36,590 bases of DNA from the NCBI GenBank assembly GCA_007117515.1, contig SKGQ01000003.1, positions 1-36,590 on the forward strand, given 5' to 3'. The stretch comes from Ectothiorhodospiraceae bacterium. GTDB taxonomy: Bacteria > Pseudomonadota > Gammaproteobacteria > Nitrococcales > Aquisalimonadaceae. Of this stretch, positions 9,560-36,590 are shown in pieces. Under the pieces are notes generated by a model. The model ran no database searches. It was not told the DNA's origin and worked only from the letters and a program-made list of their open reading frames with translations. A program made the position numbers and the translations under genes. Within the stretch, counting starts at the first letter, position 1; every line of letters starts with the position of its first letter.

Positions 9560-10420
9560 ATGATCCCCATTATCAAGGCTTTTCTCGATCAGGACTCCGA
9601 AACCTTCAGCTATGTGGTCTATGACCAGGAGGGTGGCCACGCCGCGGTGATCGATCCGGTTCTGGATTACGATCACGCGGCCGGCCGCACGTACACTACC
9701 AGTGCTGAGGAAATCGTCGCCTTCGTCCGCGACGAGGGTTTGACCGTGGATTGGGTGCTGGAGACGCATGCTCATGCGGACCATCTGTCCGCGGCACCCT
9801 TCATACGGGAGCAGCTTGGCGGGCGTATCGCGATTGGCGAGCATATCCGGGATGTGCAGGAGATCTTCCGCAAGGTCTTCAATCTGGAGAAGGAATTCCT
9901 GCCCGACGGTGCCGATTTCGACCATCTTTTCAGCGAAGGCGATACCTTCCGCATCGGTGAGTTGGAGGGGCGCGTTCTGCATACCCCGGGACACACACCG
10001 GCGGATCTGAGTTATATCATCGGTGACGCGGTGTTCGTCGGCGATACCCTGTTCATGCCTGACGCCGGCACGGCACGCTGTGATTTCCCCGGCGGTGACG
10101 CAGCCACGTTGTACCGCTCCATCGGCAAGTTGCTGGCCCTTGCCGACGACACCCGCATGTTCGTCTGCCATGACTATCCGGGTGAGAGCCGGGACCATGC
10201 CTGCGAGACCACGATTGCCGAACAACGGGAACACAATATCCATGTTGGTGCCGGGGTGACCGAGGCGGACTTCGTCGCCATGCGCACGAAGCGGGACGCG
10301 ACCCTTGGTATGCCGCGCCTGATTCTGCCGTCGATTCAGGTCAACATCCGCGCCGGCCGCATGCCCCCGCCGGAGGCCGATGGTCGCAGCTATCTGAAGA
10401 TTCCGCTGAACACGCTTTGA
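9560..10420 (+). CDS. MBL-fold persulfide dioxygenase-like (ETHE1/Blh-type)
   Basis: THAHADHLSAAPFIREQLGG, HTPGHTPADLSYIIGDAVFVGDTLFMPDAGTARCDFPGGDAATLYRSI, MFVCHDYPG. Confidence 0.88.
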   Translation: MIPIIKAFLDQDSETFSYVVYDQEGGHAAVIDPVLDYDHAAGRTYTTSAEEIVAFVRDEGLTVDWVLETHAHADHLSAAPFIREQLGGRIAIGEHIRDVQEIFRKVFNLEKEFLPDGADFDHLFSEGDTFRIGELEGRVLHTPGHTPADLSYIIGDAVFVGDTLFMPDAGTARCDFPGGDAATLYRSIGKLLALADDTRMFVCHDYPGESRDHACETTIAEQREHNIHVGAGVTEADFVAMRTKRDATLGMPRLILPSIQVNIRAGRMPPPEADGRSYLKIPLNTL

Positions 10421-10440
10421 GGCCAAGTTAACTTCCGATA

Positions 10441-10684
10441 GCGTCGGGGCCAGTGCAAGCTTTCGTCTGGCCTGGCGTCGCTTCGCTCCAACAGGGCCAG
10501 CCGAAAACTTCCACTGTCCCTGCCAGGCTGCGGATGGCGTTGCTTCGCCGGGACTGTGGATGTTGCCAGTTCCAATATTTCGGAATGCACTGAGTGCCGG
10601 GGGAGGAGAAGGTTTTTCTCCGGCCCTGTTGAACCGAAGGTTCCCCAGGACGGAAAAAAGCTTGACCTGACGCGGCACGGGGCC
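10441..10684. repeat. REPIN-like dispersed repeat family B, copy 1
   Basis: GTCGGGGCCAGTGCAAGCTTTCGTCTGGCC...CAGGACGGAAAAAAGCTTGACCTGACGCGGCACGGGGCC; the left arm, reverse-complemented, resembles the right arm; close match to 26429-26687. Confidence 0.8.
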
Positions 10685-10734
10685 AAATAGCGATCCGAGC
10701 ACGGGGCCTGATATAACGCCGACGCGGTTCGGTT

Positions 10735-13700
10735 TCAGTCAAGCGCCGTGTGCGGGCCGTCCAGGCTTCCATGATGGGCGGACGGGCGATGCAGATAAAA
10801 GCCCTGGGCATGACTGACGCCCATTTCATCCAGCATCTGCAGGGTTGCCTCGTCTTCGACGCATTCGGCGATGATGATTTTATCCAGGCCTGAGGCGACG
10901 TCGATCATGGCCTTCACGAAGGCCTGGTTATCCCGGTTATTGGGCAGGTCGCGAACGAACATGCCGTCGATCTTGAGGATGTCCACGGCCAGATATTTCA
11001 GGTAGGCAAAGGTGGCGAAGCCGGAGCCGAAATCATCCAGACAGACCTTGCAGCCGGTGCGCTGCAGGGCCTCGATGAAGTTCTGCGCGTCCTGCATTTC
11101 CGCCACGGCCGCGGTTTCGGTTACCTCGATCAGCAGCCGCTCGGCCGCCACTCCGTGTTCCACCAGCAGCTGCTTGACGTAGTGCGGCAACCCGGAGTCA
11201 TCCAGGCTGCGGGCCGAGAGATTCACCGCAAGTCCCTGCAGCTCGGGATGCTGCGCCAGCGTGCGGATGCTTTGGTGCAGCACCCATCGGTCGATCTCCA
11301 GAATCTGGCCGGTTTTTTCCGCCACCGGAATGAACTGGCCCGGCATCAGCAGGCGCTCCGGATCCCTGGGGTCGCGCATCCGCACCAGTGTTTCCAGGTG
11401 ACTGAGACTGCGATCCCGCACCCGGTAGACACCCTGAAAGTGCAGTTCCAGCAGACCGTCTTTCAACGCCATGGCAACGCGCCGACCCCAGGACAGCCTT
11501 TGCAGGTCCGCCTCGGCCTGGTCCTGCGTCGCATCATAGACAGCCCAGGTGTTCTTGCCCTGCTTCTTCGCCTGGTACATGGCCACGTCGGCGTGCGCGA
11601 CCAGGGTCTCGGGGTCACGTCCGTGATCCGGAAACACCGCGATGCCGACACTGACGGTGAGCCGGTAATTGCTGCCCCGGAAGCGCAACGGAATGCTGGA
11701 GATCGCGTGGACGATGCGTTCCGCCAGTTCCCTTGGCAGATCGCCGCGGCCCAGTTCGGTGAGGATGGCGAACTCATCACCACCCAGGCGGGCCAGCAGG
11801 TCGCCGCCCCGAACCAGGGCCGAAATCTCTCCAGCGGTCCGCACCAGCACGGTGTCGCCGGCGCGGTGGCCGAAGTTGTCATTGATGTGCTTGAAATCGT
11901 CCAGGTCGAAATACAGCAACGCGAAGCGCTGATCCAGACGCTCCGAAGTCTTCATCATCCGCTCCAGATGTTCCTGGAAACGGTGCCGATTGGAGAGCCC
12001 GGTCAGCGGATCGTGTTCGGCCAGGTAAACAAGCTGTTTCGCGGTCTGGCGTTCGTGGGTGACGTCTTCGTAGATCCACAGACGGCCGATGACCCGACCC
12101 TCGCGGTCATGTACCGGGTAGGACAACTGGGTCAGGATGCGGCCGTCATGCAGGTCCAGTTCGAAGCGTTCGCTGATTTCGTGGGTGTCGAGCACCTGCA
12201 GCGCAAAGCGCGAGGCATGATCGGGGCGGGCGAACTCGTGGGTGGAGTGGGCGAGCACGTCCCGCGTGGGTTTGCCCGCCAGGTCCAGGGTTTCGGCCAC
12301 GGCCCACATGTTGCGAAATGCCGGATTGACGTATTCGACTCGCCCGCCGCTGTCCTCGAACAGGATGCCGATACTCATTCCCGACAGCAGAGCTGCCATG
12401 CGGCTTTGTTCCCGCTCTGCCAGATCCCGCAGTTTGCGCTCGCGGCGTTCCGCTTCCCGCAGTTCATGCAGCACCTGTTCCCGTTCAGTGACGTCCTGCA
12501 GCGTGCCGAGCAGGCGGACCGCGCCATCGTCAGCTGACAGCCGACGGATGGTCAGTGAAAGGTATGACACTGAGTGCTGCGCCGGCTCGCCCCGCAGGGT
12601 GCGCTGCTCGCCGGTAGCGCTGTCCAGACAGCTCGCCAGCGCCTCATTCAATATGGTTTGATCGTCCGGGTGAAAGGCAGATCGAAAGCGCTCGATGGTT
12701 GCCGGCTCGTCATTCGTGCCCAGATGCAGCAGTCGGCGGAGCTCCGCCGACCAGATCATCGCACCGCCTTCCGGTTCCAGTTCCCAGTGCCCCAGCGCGG
12801 CCACCCATTCAGCCTGTTCCAGCCGGATGTTTGCCTGCTTCAGTGCTTGTTCCGCTTCCAGTCGCGCGCTGATTTCATGCACGATGGCGACGAATCGGGG
12901 CGTTTCCTCGGTCGGCGCCAGATACTGCAGGAAGATCTCCACCGGCAGCTGCCCGCCATTCTGTTGCCAGAGTTCGGTCTGGAAGCGCAGGGATGCGTCA
13001 CCGCCATCAAGAAGGCGCTCGATCAGTTGGCGGAATTCCCGTTCCGCGTGATTGCACAGTAGTTCACAAAACGACTTGCCACGGAGTGATTCCACATCCC
13101 GCCCCGTCTGCAGGGCGGCGCCTTCGTTGGCGTAGATCATGCGCAGGTCTACCGGATCAATGATCAGCACGCCGTCCAGCACCTGATCAAGACTGCGTTT
13201 GAACTGGTCTGCATCCGCGCGTGCCTCCTGCAGCGCCGTGGCGTCCACCATATGGCCTTCCAGAAACTTCAGCCGGCCGTCGGCATCGTAGATGCCGCTG
13301 CCATGATCGTGCAGCCAGAGCATCTCACCTGACTGGCGAAACGCCCGGAATACCACTTCATAATGACCGTTTCGATCCAGGCCATCCTGAACGGTCTGCC
13401 AGACTCGGGCCTTGTCGTCTGGATGGATGAAGTCGTCCACGTTGGCCTCGCCATTCATGAACGCCGAGGCCGCCAGACCATGCAGACTCTCAATGTCGCC
13501 GGCAATGTAGATGGCGCTCCAGTCCAGGTCATTGTTCACTCGATAGACATAACCGCGCACGGTTTCGAGCACGCGTGTCAGATCGCGATTCCCCAGATCG
13601 TTGAGCACACGCACCAGACCGAACAGGGATACGGTAATGGTCAACGTCGCCACCGCCCGCATCAGGCGCACCGGGAAACCGACTGTCGCAGCGAATGTCT

Positions 13701-14307
13701 CTTCCACCGGTAGCCAGGCAAGCAGGCCGGTTGCCGGGACGGAGAGCACCGGCATGACCACCGCATACACGGCGGTGCCGCCAGCCGCGAGTAACAGCCA
13801 GGGACGACCGTACCGGCGCACGTCCGAGTCATGGATCGTCAGTGCGCCCGCGAGGAAAACCATGGCCACGACGGTTGCCGCCGGGAAACCGATCAGCAGT
13901 CGCGAGACGGGTTCGATGGCCGCGCTGTTGATCCCCTGGCTCAGCATCAGGAATGTGGCCGGGAGAAGCAGCAGGGGATAGAGACCCAACGATACACGAC
14001 CCTCGACAAAGCCCTGCGCGGTAAGGCTGCGGCGGCCGAACTCCAGCAAGGCCAGATAGGACAGCGGCAGCAGTATGTTGCGGGCGATGGCCACCAGCGC
14101 GGAGGGGGTATGCATTCCATGCCAGCTGGCGAATACGGCGAGGCCGTGGGTGATCGCGAACAGGCCCAGCAGCCACAAGTTGGCGGCCAGCCATGGGAGT
14201 GTGCCGTGGCGACGTGGCAAAAGCAGCGCCACGGTACCGAGGATCAGGAAGGCAACGCCCTGAACCTGGTAAATCATGGCAAGCTGCTGGGGGCTTACGT
14301 CGGGCAC
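10735..14307 (-). CDS. Membrane-anchored PAS-GGDEF-EAL cyclic-di-GMP protein
   Basis: 1190 aa: N-terminal TM segments, PAS-like repeats, DPLTGLSNRHRFQEHLERM, ARLGGDEFAIL, EAL domain with LETLVRM, VNLSARSL, CLDDFGSG, ILKIDG, AECVEDEATL, AQGFYLHRP. Confidence 0.92.
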   Translation of the reverse strand: MPDVSPQQLAMIYQVQGVAFLILGTVALLLPRRHGTLPWLAANLWLLGLFAITHGLAVFASWHGMHTPSALVAIARNILLPLSYLALLEFGRRSLTAQGFVEGRVSLGLYPLLLLPATFLMLSQGINSAAIEPVSRLLIGFPAATVVAMVFLAGALTIHDSDVRRYGRPWLLLAAGGTAVYAVVMPVLSVPATGLLAWLPVEETFAATVGFPVRLMRAVATLTITVSLFGLVRVLNDLGNRDLTRVLETVRGYVYRVNNDLDWSAIYIAGDIESLHGLAASAFMNGEANVDDFIHPDDKARVWQTVQDGLDRNGHYEVVFRAFRQSGEMLWLHDHGSGIYDADGRLKFLEGHMVDATALQEARADADQFKRSLDQVLDGVLIIDPVDLRMIYANEGAALQTGRDVESLRGKSFCELLCNHAEREFRQLIERLLDGGDASLRFQTELWQQNGGQLPVEIFLQYLAPTEETPRFVAIVHEISARLEAEQALKQANIRLEQAEWVAALGHWELEPEGGAMIWSAELRRLLHLGTNDEPATIERFRSAFHPDDQTILNEALASCLDSATGEQRTLRGEPAQHSVSYLSLTIRRLSADDGAVRLLGTLQDVTEREQVLHELREAERRERKLRDLAEREQSRMAALLSGMSIGILFEDSGGRVEYVNPAFRNMWAVAETLDLAGKPTRDVLAHSTHEFARPDHASRFALQVLDTHEISERFELDLHDGRILTQLSYPVHDREGRVIGRLWIYEDVTHERQTAKQLVYLAEHDPLTGLSNRHRFQEHLERMMKTSERLDQRFALLYFDLDDFKHINDNFGHRAGDTVLVRTAGEISALVRGGDLLARLGGDEFAILTELGRGDLPRELAERIVHAISSIPLRFRGSNYRLTVSVGIAVFPDHGRDPETLVAHADVAMYQAKKQGKNTWAVYDATQDQAEADLQRLSWGRRVAMALKDGLLELHFQGVYRVRDRSLSHLETLVRMRDPRDPERLLMPGQFIPVAEKTGQILEIDRWVLHQSIRTLAQHPELQGLAVNLSARSLDDSGLPHYVKQLLVEHGVAAERLLIEVTETAAVAEMQDAQNFIEALQRTGCKVCLDDFGSGFATFAYLKYLAVDILKIDGMFVRDLPNNRDNQAFVKAMIDVASGLDKIIIAECVEDEATLQMLDEMGVSHAQGFYLHRPSAHHGSLDGPHTALD

Positions 14308-18981: not shown

Positions 18982-19162
18982 TTTGAAAAATCGCCCCAAG
19001 GATAGCCTGATCGGGGGCTGGCGTCCATGATTCCGGGTGATTTCAGAAAAAGCGTGGGTGCTTGGTTCGCTTTGCCGGACAAGGCTTTGCGGCTATACTC
19101 GGCCGCTGATTTCCGTCAATTGTCGGCGTCCGTCGGCGCCCAGTAAGCAAGGGAGAGGTCTC

Positions 19163-19792
19163 GTGAGCCAGGCCGAAAACGAATCCGCAACAATTCGTAA
19201 TTTTATCATCGCCGGCGTGCTGCTCACGATCGGCACATTGATCCTGTTCTCGCTGGCCCTGTTCATGGGCACGTTTGATACCTCCACTCGTGAAGCGCGT
19301 GAAGTATTCGAGCGGCATCAGCTCGAGCGGCGGTTGCAGACCGTCGGTGCAGTGCGAGTAGCTGACGATGCGGCCGATATCTCTCTGGAGGCGGAAGACG
19401 ACCCCGATGCGGCCGAGGCGGCAGCCGAAGAAGCGGCTGATGTGGATACCGACACTGACGTCGCCGAAGAAGAAGTGGCCGATGTGGATAACGACGCAGA
19501 GGTTGCCGAGGATGAAGCAGAGGACGTACAGCGCGGTGAAGACGTCTATGCATCTGTCTGTATGGCCTGTCACGCAGCTGGCGTGATGAATGCGCTCAAG
19601 CTTGACGATGAAGAGGGCTGGATCGCATTGAAGGAAGAGCGCGGTGGTCTGGAAGAGCTCGTCCATAATGCGATCAACGGCATCGGTGGTATGCCGGCGC
19701 GGGGTGGCAACAGCAATCTGTCGGACGACGAAGTGCGATTGGCCGTGGTCTACATGCTCGAGGAAGCCGGGCTGGATGTTGATGGCGACTAA
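19163..19792 (+). CDS. Membrane-anchored cytochrome c5-like protein with acidic linker
   Basis: N-terminal TM, acidic linker, GEDVYASVCMACHAAGVMNALKLDDEEGW...NAINGIGGMPARGGNSNLSDDEVRLAVVYMLEEAG (CxxCH, c5-type). Confidence 0.87.
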   Translation: MSQAENESATIRNFIIAGVLLTIGTLILFSLALFMGTFDTSTREAREVFERHQLERRLQTVGAVRVADDAADISLEAEDDPDAAEAAAEEAADVDTDTDVAEEEVADVDNDAEVAEDEAEDVQRGEDVYASVCMACHAAGVMNALKLDDEEGWIALKEERGGLEELVHNAINGIGGMPARGGNSNLSDDEVRLAVVYMLEEAGLDVDGD

Positions 19793-22412: not shown

Positions 22413-22445
22413 GAGCTGCCCTCCCTGGCGTCATGGTGGTCGGCG

Positions 22446-22630
22446 TTAAGGAAACGCTGATTCATTTGCACGCCTGCGTTGGCCCAACCGAGGGGCCCGG
22501 CCGGTTTTGGCCCCTGGCGACGTTGCGCTGCCGGCCCGATAGCGACGGCTACCGAACCGGCACCGCGCCTTGCCAGATGACCAAAACCGGTCTCGGGCGC
22601 AGACGTGGGAATAAAGCAGCGTTTCCTTAA
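22446..22630. repeat. 185-bp element with perfect 14-bp terminal inverted repeats (family A, MITE-like)
   Basis: TTAAGGAAACGCTG ... CAGCGTTTCCTTAA ends; internal long hairpin CCGGTTTTGG...CCAAAACCGG; second copy from 36343. Confidence 0.85.
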
Positions 22631-22641
22631 CTCCCGGCGGC

Positions 22642-24971: not shown

Positions 24972-25574
24972 GTGTCCGAAAGCCCTTCTCTTCGCCTGCA
25001 AGACGTTGCCATCGGTGAACTGCAAGCGGTCAATCTGACCGTGGCACCAGGAGAGATCGTCTGTCTGTCCGGTGCATCCGGTTCCGGCAAGAGCCGTCTG
25101 TTGCGGGCAGTCGCCGATCTGGAGCCACACGACGGTGAGATCGCGCTCCGTGAGCTGGTCCAGGGGCGGATTCCCGGTCATCTCTGGCGCGCCGCGGTGA
25201 TGCTGGTGCCGGCGGAAAGCCAGTGGTGGGCAGAAACGGTAGGCGAACATTTTTCGCCAGGAATGCACCTCGATCTGGCGCCTCTCGGCTTTGATGATGC
25301 CGTCATGGGCTGGTCGATCAGCCGCCTGTCCTCGGGCGAGAAGCAGCGCCTGGCACTGGCCCGTGCGGTTGCCCGAGAGCCGAAAGCCCTGCTGCTGGAT
25401 GAACCCACCGCCAACCTCGACCCGGACAGTATCCGGCGGGTCGAGGACTGGCTGCAGGATCTGATCCGGCAGCGGAGTCTGCCGGTACTCTGGGTGGCTC
25501 ATGATCAGGCGCAGATCGAACGTGTCGGCCAGCGCCATTTCCGCATTTTCAACGGCAGCCTGGAGCAGGACTGA
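24972..25574 (+). CDS. fetA: ABC transporter ATP-binding protein, FetA (YbbL)-like
   Basis: GASGSGKSRLLRAVADL Walker A; LSSGEKQRLALARAVAREPKALLLDEPTANLD; coupled to the FetB-like permease. Confidence 0.82.
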   Translation: MSESPSLRLQDVAIGELQAVNLTVAPGEIVCLSGASGSGKSRLLRAVADLEPHDGEIALRELVQGRIPGHLWRAAVMLVPAESQWWAETVGEHFSPGMHLDLAPLGFDDAVMGWSISRLSSGEKQRLALARAVAREPKALLLDEPTANLDPDSIRRVEDWLQDLIRQRSLPVLWVAHDQAQIERVGQRHFRIFNGSLEQD

Positions 25575-26374
25575 TGGATGTCATTGATCTGAGCTGGTGG
25601 GAGCTGGGGCTGGCCTCGTTGCTGGTGGTGGCTCTGGCCGCCGTGGCCCATCTGGCGCGACTGGGGCTGGGCAAGGACATCCTGATCGCCGCCGCGCGCA
25701 CGGTGCTGCAACTGGCACTGATTGGCCTGGTGCTGGAGGCGCTGTTCTCGGTCGGTTCATTGCACTGGGTTGCATTGATGGCCGTCGCGATGCTGCTCAT
25801 TGCCGGCCGCGAGGTGATGGCGCGGCAGAAGCGTCGGCTGTCCGGTGGCTGGGCCTTCGGTATCGGCACGGTTTCCATGTTTCTTTCATCGTTCACGGTC
25901 ACCGTGCTCACCCTGACCGTAATCATCGGCCCCGACCCCTGGTTCACGCCGCAGTATGCGATCCCGCTACTGGGCATGATGCTGGGCAACACGATGACGG
26001 GTGTCGCCCTTGGCCTCGACCGTCTGACTGATGGCGTCTGGCGTCAGCGGCAGTTGATCGAGAATCGCCTGATGCTGGGCGAGAGCTGGAGTCAGGCGGT
26101 TGGCGACATTCGCCGCGATGCAATGCGCAGCGGCATGATCCCGATCATCAATGCCATGGCGGCCGCCGGCGTGGTCAGCCTGCCGGGCATGATGACCGGC
26201 CAGATCCTGGCCGGCAGTCCGCCGGCGCTGGCGGTGAAATACCAGATCCTGGTGATGTTCACGATCACGGTGGGCACCGGCTTCGGTACCGTGGCTGCGG
26301 TGATGGCTGGCAGCCGCCGCCTGTTCGACGAGCGCGAACGGCTGCGTACGGATCGTTTGCACACGGTTGCTTAG
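25574..26374 (+). CDS. fetB: FetB (YbbM/UPF0014)-like permease
   Basis: VLQLALIGLVLEALF; YAIPLLGMMLGNTMTGVALGLDRLTD; MMTGQILAGSPPALAVKYQILVMFTI. Confidence 0.87.
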   Translation: MDVIDLSWWELGLASLLVVALAAVAHLARLGLGKDILIAAARTVLQLALIGLVLEALFSVGSLHWVALMAVAMLLIAGREVMARQKRRLSGGWAFGIGTVSMFLSSFTVTVLTLTVIIGPDPWFTPQYAIPLLGMMLGNTMTGVALGLDRLTDGVWRQRQLIENRLMLGESWSQAVGDIRRDAMRSGMIPIINAMAAAGVVSLPGMMTGQILAGSPPALAVKYQILVMFTITVGTGFGTVAAVMAGSRRLFDERERLRTDRLHTVA

Positions 26375-26428
26375 CGCGCATCGCCGCAGGCCATGGGTAA
26401 GCTTTCCCCACGGTGCTGTTCTGGGAGT

Positions 26429-26687
26429 GTCGGGGCCAGTGCAAGCTTTCGTCTGGCCTGACGAACGTTCCGTTCAACAGGGCCAGCCGAAAACTTCCAC
26501 TGGCCCTGCCGGGCTGCGGATCGTGTGGCTCCGTCCGGACCGGGCCTCGATATACAACGCGGTTCGGTCAGGAACCTTCATGCCAGTTGCCGTTGAGTGC
26601 CGGGGGAGGACAAGGTTTTTCTCCGGCCCTGTTGGCGCGAAGCGCCGCCAGGACGGAAAAAAGCTTGTCCTCACGCGGCACGGGGCC
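26429..26687. repeat. REPIN-like dispersed repeat family B, copy 2
   Basis: GTCGGGGCCAGTGCAAGCTTTCGTCTGGCC...CCAGGACGGAAAAAAGCTTGTCCTCACGCGGCACGGGGCC; same inverted-arm organisation as copy 1. Confidence 0.82.
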
Positions 26688-26756
26688 AGGTGCAGTTCTG
26701 AGAGCGTCCGGGCCAGGTGTCCAACGCGACCGGGACTACCACCGCATACCTGTCTG

Positions 26757-26803
26757 CACCGAGTGCGGGGGGAGAAAAAGCTTGTCCTCACACGACACGG
26801 GAT
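26757..26803 (+). repeat. Family B fragment (internally deleted arm)
   Basis: CACCGAGTGCGGGGGGAGAAAAAGCTTGTCCTCACACGACACGGGAT resembles the right arm with the hairpin removed. Confidence 0.6.
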
Positions 26804-26849
26804 CTGGTGCGGGCCCCGGTGTGCCCCCGCCAAACCGAGAGCAGATTGC

Positions 26850-27719
26850 CTACTTTGACTGCTCCGAGAAACGATGCTGGCAGAACGGCGGGGCTGTAAG
26901 CGCCGCGCGATGCATGTCTGCACTATAATAGTGCGTCCCCAGATCGGCCTTGCGGGCGTCATCTTCGCGGAAGCGATTCAGATCCGCACCCTTGCTGGCC
27001 ATGGTGGCGGACCACCAACCGGTGGGGTAGCTGACCACCGGGAACTGCATGGTGGCCAGGCGGCTGAAACCGGCGCCGCGCATGGCTTCGTGGAGATCCT
27101 TGATCAGGCTGTCCACATGCAGGATCGGTGACTCGCTCTGTTGTACCAGCAGGCCGTCGTCGGTCAGCGCCCGGTGGACGTCCCGCAGGAAGCTCTCGCC
27201 GAACAGGCCCTCGGCCGGGCCGACCGGGTCCGTGCTGTCGACGATGACCACGTCCAGCGAACCGGCCTCGCAGTCCTTCAGGTATTGCAGACCGTCCTCG
27301 AAACGCAGCTCGGCGCGAGGGTCGTTGTTGGCGGTGCACAGCTCGGGAAAGTAATCGAGCGCTGCGCGGGTCACGCCCTCGTCGATGTCCACCTGCACGC
27401 AGCGTTCGACGCCGGAGTGCCTGAGGACTTCCTGCAGCACGCCGCAGTCGCCGCCACCGATGATCAGCACCCGCTTCGGCGCCGGGTGGGTGAACAGTAC
27501 CGGATGCGACATCATCTCGTGATAGGTGAAGTTGTCGCGGCTGGTCAGCATCATGCAGCCGTCGATCACCAGCAGATTGCCCCAGCGCTCGGTCTCGAAC
27601 ACCTCGATCTTCTGGAACGGGGTCTGTTCCTCGTGCAGCTTGCGTCGGATCTGCAGGGAGAAGGCGATGCCCTCGTCGCCGAAGGGTTCGCTGAACCACT
27701 GCCTGTCATCGAGTGCCAT
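26850..27719 (-). CDS. speE: Spermidine synthase
   Basis: FQKIEVFETERWGNLLVIDGCMMLTSRDNFTYHEMMSHPVLFTHPAPKRVLIIGGGDCGVLQEVLRH. Confidence 0.94.
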   Translation of the reverse strand: MALDDRQWFSEPFGDEGIAFSLQIRRKLHEEQTPFQKIEVFETERWGNLLVIDGCMMLTSRDNFTYHEMMSHPVLFTHPAPKRVLIIGGGDCGVLQEVLRHSGVERCVQVDIDEGVTRAALDYFPELCTANNDPRAELRFEDGLQYLKDCEAGSLDVVIVDSTDPVGPAEGLFGESFLRDVHRALTDDGLLVQQSESPILHVDSLIKDLHEAMRGAGFSRLATMQFPVVSYPTGWWSATMASKGADLNRFREDDARKADLGTHYYSADMHRAALTAPPFCQHRFSEQSK

Positions 27720-29745: not shown

Positions 29746-30630
29746 ATGAACACCGGAGTCATTGGTCTTGGCGCGATGGGCGCCGGTATGGCACGCAACC
29801 TGGCGGCTGACGGACTGCTCGCCGCGGTCTGGAACCGGACGGCTGCAAAGGCCGAGGCGCTGGCCGCCGAGCTCGGTGTTCCCGTGGCCGCGGATCCGGC
29901 CGATCTGGCAAACCGCTGCGAGGTGATCGTCAGCTGTGTGTCCCGGGATGCGGATGTGCTGGAGGTCATACAGGCATTGCAACCCGCGCTGACCGCCGGC
30001 AAGACGGTGGTGGATTGCTCCACGATCGCAGTCGACACCGCGCGGCAGGCGGGGGCATTGGTGAGTGAGACCGGCGCCCGGTTTCTCGACGCGCCGGTCT
30101 CCGGCGGTCGGGAAGGGGCCGAGGCCGGTCAACTGGTTTTCATGGTGGGCGGTGAGGCGGAAGCCGTCGACGCCCTGGCACCGGTGTTCCAGGCCATGGG
30201 TAAGCAGACCACCCATATGGGGCCTGTCGGCAGCGGCCAGGCCACCAAGGCGGTGAACCAGATCATGGCGGCCGGCATCAATCAGGCGGTGACCGAGGCA
30301 CTGGCCTTTGGTCAGGCCTCGGGGCTGGACATGGGCAAGGTCATCGACGTGGTGGGTGGTGGTGCCGCCGGCAACTGGTTCCTGCAGAAACGCGGCGCGA
30401 GCATGGTCGACGGGGTGTTCGAGCCGGGCTTCAAGCTGGCGCTGCATCACAAGGACCTGTCCATCTGCAAACGCATGTCCGCGGAAATGGGCGTCGCGTT
30501 GCCCATCATCGAGATGACGCTGAAGCACTACGAGCGTTTGATGGAAGCAGGTTTCGGCGAGGAAGATATCTCGGCGTTGTTCCGGGCCAAGCGGGATTTG
30601 TTCGAGAATGGAAATATGAAATCGCTCTGA
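29746..30630 (+). CDS. 3-hydroxyisobutyrate dehydrogenase / beta-hydroxyacid dehydrogenase family
   Basis: MNTGVIGLGAMGAGMARNLAADGL; FLDAPVSGGREGAEAGQLVFMVGG; GSGQATKAVNQI. ATG 29734 is an alternative start. Confidence 0.9.
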   Translation: MNTGVIGLGAMGAGMARNLAADGLLAAVWNRTAAKAEALAAELGVPVAADPADLANRCEVIVSCVSRDADVLEVIQALQPALTAGKTVVDCSTIAVDTARQAGALVSETGARFLDAPVSGGREGAEAGQLVFMVGGEAEAVDALAPVFQAMGKQTTHMGPVGSGQATKAVNQIMAAGINQAVTEALAFGQASGLDMGKVIDVVGGGAAGNWFLQKRGASMVDGVFEPGFKLALHHKDLSICKRMSAEMGVALPIIEMTLKHYERLMEAGFGEEDISALFRAKRDLFENGNMKSL

Positions 30631-30642
30631 CGGATGTCAGAG

Positions 30643-30710
30643 CGCGTTTTACGTTTTAAGTTTTAGGTTTTACGTTACGTAAAACCTAAAACGTTACACC
30701 TAAAACGCGT
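30643..30710. repeat. AT-rich heptamer-based palindrome between convergent genes
   Basis: CGCGTTTTACGTTTTAAGTTTTAGGTTTTACGTTACGTAAAACCTAAAACGTTACACCTAAAACGCGT; near-perfect dyad with core arms GTTTTAGGTTTTACGT / ACGTAAAACCTAAAAC at 30660-30692. Confidence 0.85.
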
Positions 30711-35765: not shown

Positions 35766-36344
35766 ATGCAGATTCTTGACACGGCAGCAGACGGTGAGGA
35801 CATCTGGCAGCAGATGGTGCATCTCTATCAGCAGCCGGGGGTTGCCGATCATTGTCTGCACTGCCAGGACCGGTTCCGCCTCAGCATCACGGCGATGTTG
35901 AGTCTGATTCTGCTAGCCGCCGCGGGCAGGGGCGCCATTCGCCCGCCGGCAGCCGCTGATATCGCAGACGAATCGGAGCGCTGGCAGGCAGAAGTTCTAC
36001 GCCCGCTGCGCCAGGCGCGCAACGCCCTGAAGGCCCGTCTGCAGACCGGCGCGGCGTCTGATCTGACCGACTTGCGACACGGTCTGCTGGCCCGCGAACT
36101 GGACGCCGAGCGGATCGAGCAGCGGCTGATTCTCGCCAAAGCCCTCGCGCCAGGGGCAATGGTGCCGGCTTCCGACCCATTGGCCGATGCCGCTTCGGCG
36201 CTGGCGCGCTACCTATTGGCCCTGCCCTGCTCACCCGACATCGAAAGCCGCCAGCGCCTCGGTCTGATCCTGAGTGCCGCGCTGCCGGACTACGATGGCC
36301 TGGACATTGTCCAGGCCCTGGATCTGGCCTTACGCATCGGCTAG
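35766..36344 (+). CDS. TIGR02444-like (DUF2390) protein
   Basis: MQILDTAADGEDIWQQMVHLYQQPGVADHCLHCQDRFRLSITAMLSLILLAAAGRG...WQAEVLRPLRQARNALKARL; ATG 35766 chosen over the 35595 track start. Confidence 0.65.
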   Translation: MQILDTAADGEDIWQQMVHLYQQPGVADHCLHCQDRFRLSITAMLSLILLAAAGRGAIRPPAAADIADESERWQAEVLRPLRQARNALKARLQTGAASDLTDLRHGLLARELDAERIEQRLILAKALAPGAMVPASDPLADAASALARYLLALPCSPDIESRQRLGLILSAALPDYDGLDIVQALDLALRIG

Positions 36345-36590
36345 GGAAACACTGATTTATTCCCGCGTCTGCGCCCGAGACCGGTTTTGGTCATCTGGCA
36401 AGGCGCGGTGCCGGTTCGGTAGCCTTAGCTACCGGGCCGGTGGCGTAACGCAGCCAGAGGCCAAAACCGGCCGGGGTCTTCGACTTGGGCCGCATTTTTC
36501 CCGATTGCGGCGTTGCGCTGCTTGACCGCAGAATGACTGCGGCGCTGCACAGCGCGCCTTGCCTCGGAAAAAATGCGGACTCCAACGCAG
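36343..36590. repeat. Family A TIR element, second copy, running off the window edge, with an added nested palindrome
   Basis: AGGGAAACACTGATTTATTCCCGCGTCTGCGCCCGAGACCGGTTTTGGTCATCTGGCAAGGCGCGGTGCCGGTTCGGTAGCC closely matches the reverse complement of 22446-22630; then CCGCATTTTTCC...GGAAAAAATGCGG around CCGCAG-AATGA-CTGCGG. Confidence 0.8.

Follow-up and report, generated by a model that had tools for sequence, protein, structure and literature searches.

The window analysed here, a stretch of 36,590 nucleotides, carries two copies of a palindromic element 16 kb apart, each an inverted doublet that lies between convergent genes and has no strand of its own. Copy 1 spans about 10430-10690, slightly more than the 10441-10684 assigned to it in an earlier note made from the letters of the sequence, and is enclosed by the ORFs 9560-10420 (+) and 10735-14307 (-). 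Its left arm is a long hairpin of ~79 nt on the minus strand, the L unit (10446-10524, covariance model E 2.8e-20), and its right arm a long hairpin of ~86 nt on the plus strand, the R unit (10594-10679, placed by alignment and fold), with ~60 nt separating the two inverted units. Copy 2 (26417-26700), between the ORFs 25574-26374 (+) and 26850-27719 (-), has the same composition, with an L unit at 26432-26510 (-, covariance model of the L unit) and an R unit at 26597-26682 (+, alignment and fold). A decayed extra R unit, of which only the 3' half is left (model positions 73-110), follows at 26774-26811 (+) and also appears as a direct repeat. Direct repeats between the two copies of the window extend over 122 nt at 84% and 95 nt at 89% identity, far above chance.

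Direct reading of 10430-10690 and 26417-26700 confirmed the four arm tips as first reported, including the imperfect first stem: GGAGC-GAA-GCGAC (10477-10489, -) and GAACC-GAA-GGTTC (10631-10643, +) in the L and R units of copy 1, and GAACG-GAA-CGTTC (26463-26475, -) and GGCGC-GAA-GCGCC (26634-26646, +) in those of copy 2. These 13-nt tips with 5-bp stems are real, but the hairpin is the whole unit of ~80 nt with 29-34 pairs, of which the tip forms only the end. Alignment of the four arms separated two subtypes, L (left arm, minus strand) and R (right arm, plus strand), which have a common centre (GGCCCTGTT...CAGG, AAG...GCTTG) and differ in the outer stem. The initial description as two inverted ~85-nt units thus holds for the inversion, but not in the sense of two copies of one unit.

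Is the doublet a repeat of the genome or a local duplication? A blastn search of copy 1 against its own genome (2.4 Mb in 210 contigs, 97% complete) gave about 90 matches, the best non-self match at E 1e-74. The stretches around the blastn matches in this genome and in the congener G002 yielded 45 L and 34 R units of full length in total, with at least 33 L and at least 25 R units in the window genome (other contigs may hold more) and 12 L and 9 R units in G002. The two copies within 16 kb could by themselves have come from a passive duplication of intergenic DNA inside the window, a reading that retains virtually no probability given dozens of copies across the genome and in a congener; the family is a dispersed repeat, as had been proposed. 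The proposed constancy of the GAA loop did not survive the larger sample, since GAA is the commonest loop but occurs in 40 of 77 full units, the remainder having GGA, AAC, GCA and others. Two or more hairpin designs exist for the L tip, since some tips (L033, L060, L044, L034, L062 and L167, with GGCGTCGTTGGACCAACGGGACGTCGCGCC or near variants) can pair in a shifted register, CGTTG-GAC-CAACG. Three truncated L units (L187:3004-3048, L189:6088-6132 and L195:1839-1878) all break off immediately ahead of the tip, at model position 47, and continue into the linker that leads to the following R unit, so that half a hairpin has been lost repeatedly.

Every unit forms a single long imperfect hairpin of 73-87 nt. 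For L, with 29 pairs and 94.7% of alignment cells paired, both sides changed in 12 pairs, and the 75 cells with changes on both sides compare with 16.9 in shuffled alignments (0 of 500 reached 75) and 4-16 in slid controls; these counts lean on the structure chosen, to which tip pairs were added by hand, RNAalifold having omitted the pairs 54-64 and 55-63. Both omitted pairs rank among the top 'non-structure' pairs in the tree test described below. For R, with 34 pairs and 91.9% paired, both sides changed in 8 pairs, and 49 such cells were observed against 16.7 in shuffles when the fold of 26597-26682 was taken as the structure, on which the counts lean. Because the units are related to one another, we added a phylogenetic null, in which changes were placed by Fitch parsimony on a FastTree tree and re-dealt over its branches in 500 replicates. 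Here, L showed 13 compensatory branches in 11 pairs (null mean 2.0, maximum 6 in 500) and seven pairs with E<0.05, while R showed 3 compensatory branches (null mean 1.3, maximum 5) and did not exceed the null, with two pairs in the tree test. The L units thus have support for covariation above the phylogenetic background, the R units no more than a hint of it. The covariation test proposed in the earlier note came out positive for the L units and not significant in branch counts for R alone, and its statement that the fold is maintained stands. Among single-side changes of Watson-Crick pairs, 18 led to G.T and 8 to A.C (p 0.076), an excess that is suggestive only.

Compensatory changes can also arise by mutation, with neither selection nor mobility keeping the fold. 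Template switching, known from long inverted repeats that are imperfect (compare PMC7202029), copies one arm of a quasi-palindrome onto the other and yields compensatory changes in single events. Many of the compensatory changes observed here arrive as blocks. However, such copying would erase mismatches, yet a G.G mismatch persists at 14-70 in 41 of 44 L units and at 15-73 in 30 of 33 R units, and it leaves dozens of dispersed and oriented pairs unexplained. We therefore regard template switching as a rather unlikely account of the fold.

The persistent mismatches coincide with a pronounced difference between the strands. The energy of the single-stranded DNA fold was lower on the same, displayed strand in 44 of 44 L and 32 of 33 R units, with a mean gap of about 8 kcal/mol. 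This results from mismatches at fixed places that differ between the strands: beside the two G.G sites, L 35-49 is T.G in 42 of 44 units, so that the displayed strand has G.G or G.T at the fixed sites where its complement has C.C or A.C. Since L and R face in opposite directions, each DNA strand of a doublet contains one strong and one weak hairpin. As the units share ancestry, polarity in 76 of 77 units does not amount to 76 independent observations, and it may go back to a common ancestor instead of repeated selection. Strand polarity together with stem mismatches is the situation described for REPs, where the TnpA_REP of E. coli recognises the single-stranded REP, not its complement, and requires the conserved stem mismatch (PMC8266576). 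The units of this family would probably be recognised as strand-specific single-stranded DNA hairpins.

The units are arranged in a recurrent manner. An inverted L/R combination is present in 26 of 44 clusters (own count from the table), nearly always with the same polarity, L reverse and then R forward; alternating arrays occur as well (LrL, LrLrL, L*rLrL), and the remaining clusters are single units, same-orientation pairs or fragments. The family is a multicopy, imperfect and intergenic palindrome with 58 full units in its own genome, and 32 of the 37 clusters with genes on both sides lie between convergent (17) or co-directional (15) genes, the other 5 being divergent. The window's own 24 intergenic spaces comprise 5 convergent, 13 co-directional and 6 divergent ones, which leaves a modest excess of convergent sites (17/37 versus 5/24, Fisher p 0.059, with simple gene calls). 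REPs likewise favour the space between convergent and co-directional genes (PMC3733652).

A position mostly downstream of genes is also what a structured RNA would show, for example a 3'-UTR hairpin, an attenuator or a transcript-stability element kept for its function in the transcript, with dispersal being secondary. The excess of G.T over A.C changes and the RNA fold, for which the same strand is again the better one in 74 of 77 units, point in the same direction. However, the two units of a pair occupy opposite strands, so that any transcript contains the 'good' strand of one and the 'bad' strand of the other; among 13 co-directional clusters L has the sense orientation in 8 and the antisense orientation in 5 (own count), no U-tract follows the hairpin, Rfam has no match and orthologous gene pairs in congeners lack the doublet. 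We consider a function in the transcript unlikely, and an oriented RNA element was rejected as the main reading on account of the absent orientation bias and the opposite strands within each pair. Of the two possibilities raised initially, a structured RNA or a REP/REPIN-type repeat, the mobile-repeat side fits better, while opposite-facing units and the lack of orientation bias leave the structured RNA not favoured.

The Rfam search gave no match at the element at the gathering threshold; in a search of five loci at E<=0.1 three matches appeared, every one below its gathering score. The initial impression that the family is not a recognised named class is borne out to the extent that no Rfam family covers the element. 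Its range is narrow. Among 59 relatives, sequence matches were confined to its own genome and G002, plus one fragment in the congener G001, and the L-unit covariance model found the family in the window genome and G002, with no family in G001, the congener G003 or 50 other genomes of the order. None of the other 368 genomes sampled from the whole class contained it, under the stricter filters used at that scale, and plasmids, phages and viral contigs contained no match to the element. From these searches, the family is seen as restricted to a small number of species within a single genus. For one flanking protein, the closest named relative comes from a Pseudomonadales-labelled MAG, CSSed162cmA_84 (73% identity).

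Orthologous sites in the congeners showed presence/absence variation for both window copies. The intergenic space of copy 1, ~337 bp in the window, measures ~118 bp in G002 and <100 bp in G001, both without the element. At the site of copy 2, G001 has ~40 bp and no element, G003 is apparently empty and G002 carries a single L unit. Insertion junctions and target-site duplications were sought in the congeners, and none were readable in flanks too diverged for this. As exact junctions are unreadable, absence in the congeners may in part be loss; given the narrow range of the family, gain in the lineage of the window appears the simpler reading.

Which enzyme could have moved the units? The PF01797 (Y1_Tnp) profile had no match in the 97% complete window genome (positive controls: 5 of 14 known genomes). 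Among the congeners, it found no gene in G001, one in G002 and one in G003, where the family is absent, and the G002 gene has no unit of the family at a distance of up to about 3 kb. Outright membership in the REP/REPIN class, as initially suggested, is not supported on these two points, a window genome without a RAYT and a RAYT-type gene in G002 without nearby units, and the name 'REPIN' would denote a resemblance in architecture. A RAYT may have been lost after spreading, may have fallen into an assembly gap or may never have been the enzyme in use. Its absence is not fatal to the analogy with REPs, since REPtrons are deleted in some species and CGTC REPs apparently have no dedicated transposase (PMC3733652).

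How closely does the family match known repeats? In the BIMEs of enterobacteria, the REP/PU mosaics of y, z1 and z2, two subtypes of imperfect palindrome with conserved stem mismatches likewise alternate in opposite orientation, joined by linkers, in intergenic DNA (PMC8266576 and PMC2817692). REP units measure 20-40 nt, whereas those observed here, with ~79 and ~86 nt, have about twice the usual length, and the BIMEs also differ in foot tag and in the missing RAYT. Directly 5' of the stem, GTAG is found in 14 and GCAG in 18 of 45 L units (32 of 45 together), while none was seen by eye at R. REPINs, REP doublets that form hairpins (PMC3116915), resemble the family in the inverted pair as the apparent unit, in singlets and tandem arrays and in intergenic location, but here the arms are different subtypes, each itself a long hairpin, and no RAYT is associated, whereas that of a REPIN is typically flanked by the repeat. 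With the GTAG/CGTC REP superfamilies (PMC3733652) the family has in common sub-families with alternative complementary stem residues, G.T pairs and convergent or co-directional locations; known GTAG REP stems, however, have 6-13 bp against 29-34 pairs here, and in most of their families >90% of members keep the tag (PMC3733652), against GYAG in 71% of L units and no visible tag at R. The family is thus at most a candidate GTAG-tagged REP, the tag being about half GCAG and half GTAG and seen on L only. The self-complementary TIR families of tyrosine transposases (TIRYT; PMC3733652) also form dimers and clusters, but no transposase gene flanked by L/R units was found here.

Taken together, the family is very probably a genus-restricted, non-autonomous and dispersed palindromic repeat with a BIME/REPIN-like architecture. 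It is REP/BIME-like in every tested respect save unit length, tag and transposase, and is therefore a variant of the REP/BIME kind and not a proven member. Its building blocks are the paralogous L (~79 nt) and R (~86 nt) hairpins, each folding markedly better on one strand. They usually form an inverted L-linker-R pair, at times alternating arrays, and lie mainly on the 3' side of genes. The L-R pair would be the unit that spreads, and the mover most likely a transposase acting in trans, either no longer encoded by the window genome or unrecognised. By analogy with REPs, a RAYT/Y1-type enzyme appears the likeliest candidate, and nothing here ties one to the family.

In some L and R units, an insert of about 155-275 nt splits the tip (model positions 53-62). 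The insert is family A, a ~270-nt element with the ends GGAAACACTGA...TCAGTGTTTCC, which is abundant in all four congeners, with at least 40 copies in each of the window genome, G001 and G002. In the window, family A occurs as MITEs of ~190-270 nt at 22442-22634 and 36342-36575, with ends GGAAAC(A/G)CTGA and flanking TTAA or CTAG. Outside the tips its copies mostly have TTAA or CTAG on both sides, a YTAR-like duplication that we take to recall IS5-group elements. With such a MITE as neighbour, the palindromic family itself could be a classical MITE of a DDE transposon, palindromic by chance; it is dispersed, non-coding and intergenic like family A, which has terminal inverted repeats and TTAA/CTAG duplications. 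In contrast, the outer end of L is not clearly an inverted repeat of that of R, solo L, solo R and alternating arrays are common, no duplication was seen (in flanks too diverged to read one) and no L/R pair encloses an ORF in the fetched stretches, which makes a DDE-type origin improbable.

Among 30 family A loci, five with >=95% identity to the query and one with 86% (in G001) all lie in tips, against 0 of the 24 others (Fisher p 1.7e-6, with the query itself a tip insert and the copies related). Loci of this subfamily in L/R tips are L222:2683-3060, L201:3355-3737, L189:754-1139, L211:2937-3311, L186:2525-2784, L199:3872-3925 and L268. It is present in both species and beside the only G001 fragment, and both L and R units were hit; a further tip insert in G002 (L209) is a general family A copy. 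The similarity of the junctions, with CTC[CA]AGCGACG on the right side in several, suggests that at least some tip inserts are copies of one composite and not separate insertions. A mobile element repeatedly found at a fixed site of a palindromic repeat is known from the REP-targeting insertion sequences ISPpu9, ISPpu10 and IS1397 (PMC1525189), whereas the insert observed here is a short non-coding MITE and, judging by its junctions, the pattern may in part reflect copying of a composite instead of repeated insertion. One could further imagine a mobile hairpin system outside both the RAYT/REP and the DDE-MITE classes, in which an unrecognised enzyme moves long strand-specific hairpins, a second MITE subfamily has the hairpin tip as its dedicated landing or cargo site and the nested composite spreads; we give this reading a small chance.

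The BIME/REPIN-like repeat represents no new principle, being in its looks an oversized and transposase-less relative of REP/BIME repeats. Its roughly 80 aligned hairpins form a clean natural collection of long DNA hairpins that show compensatory changes, mismatches at fixed sites and a strand polarity, set in a genome with no recognisable RAYT. Two questions thereby become testable: can a REP-like repeat persist or spread when no RAYT is present, and do other MITEs insert preferentially at hairpin tips?

Two further repeats were observed in the window. Two 42-nt tandem copies (81%) lie at 19427-19510 inside the ORF 19037-19792. Between convergent ORFs ending at 30630 (+) and 30721 (-), a 33-nt AT-rich inverted repeat with a 1-nt spacer, 88% complementary and with TTTTACG-like motifs (30643-30709), may act as a bidirectional terminator.
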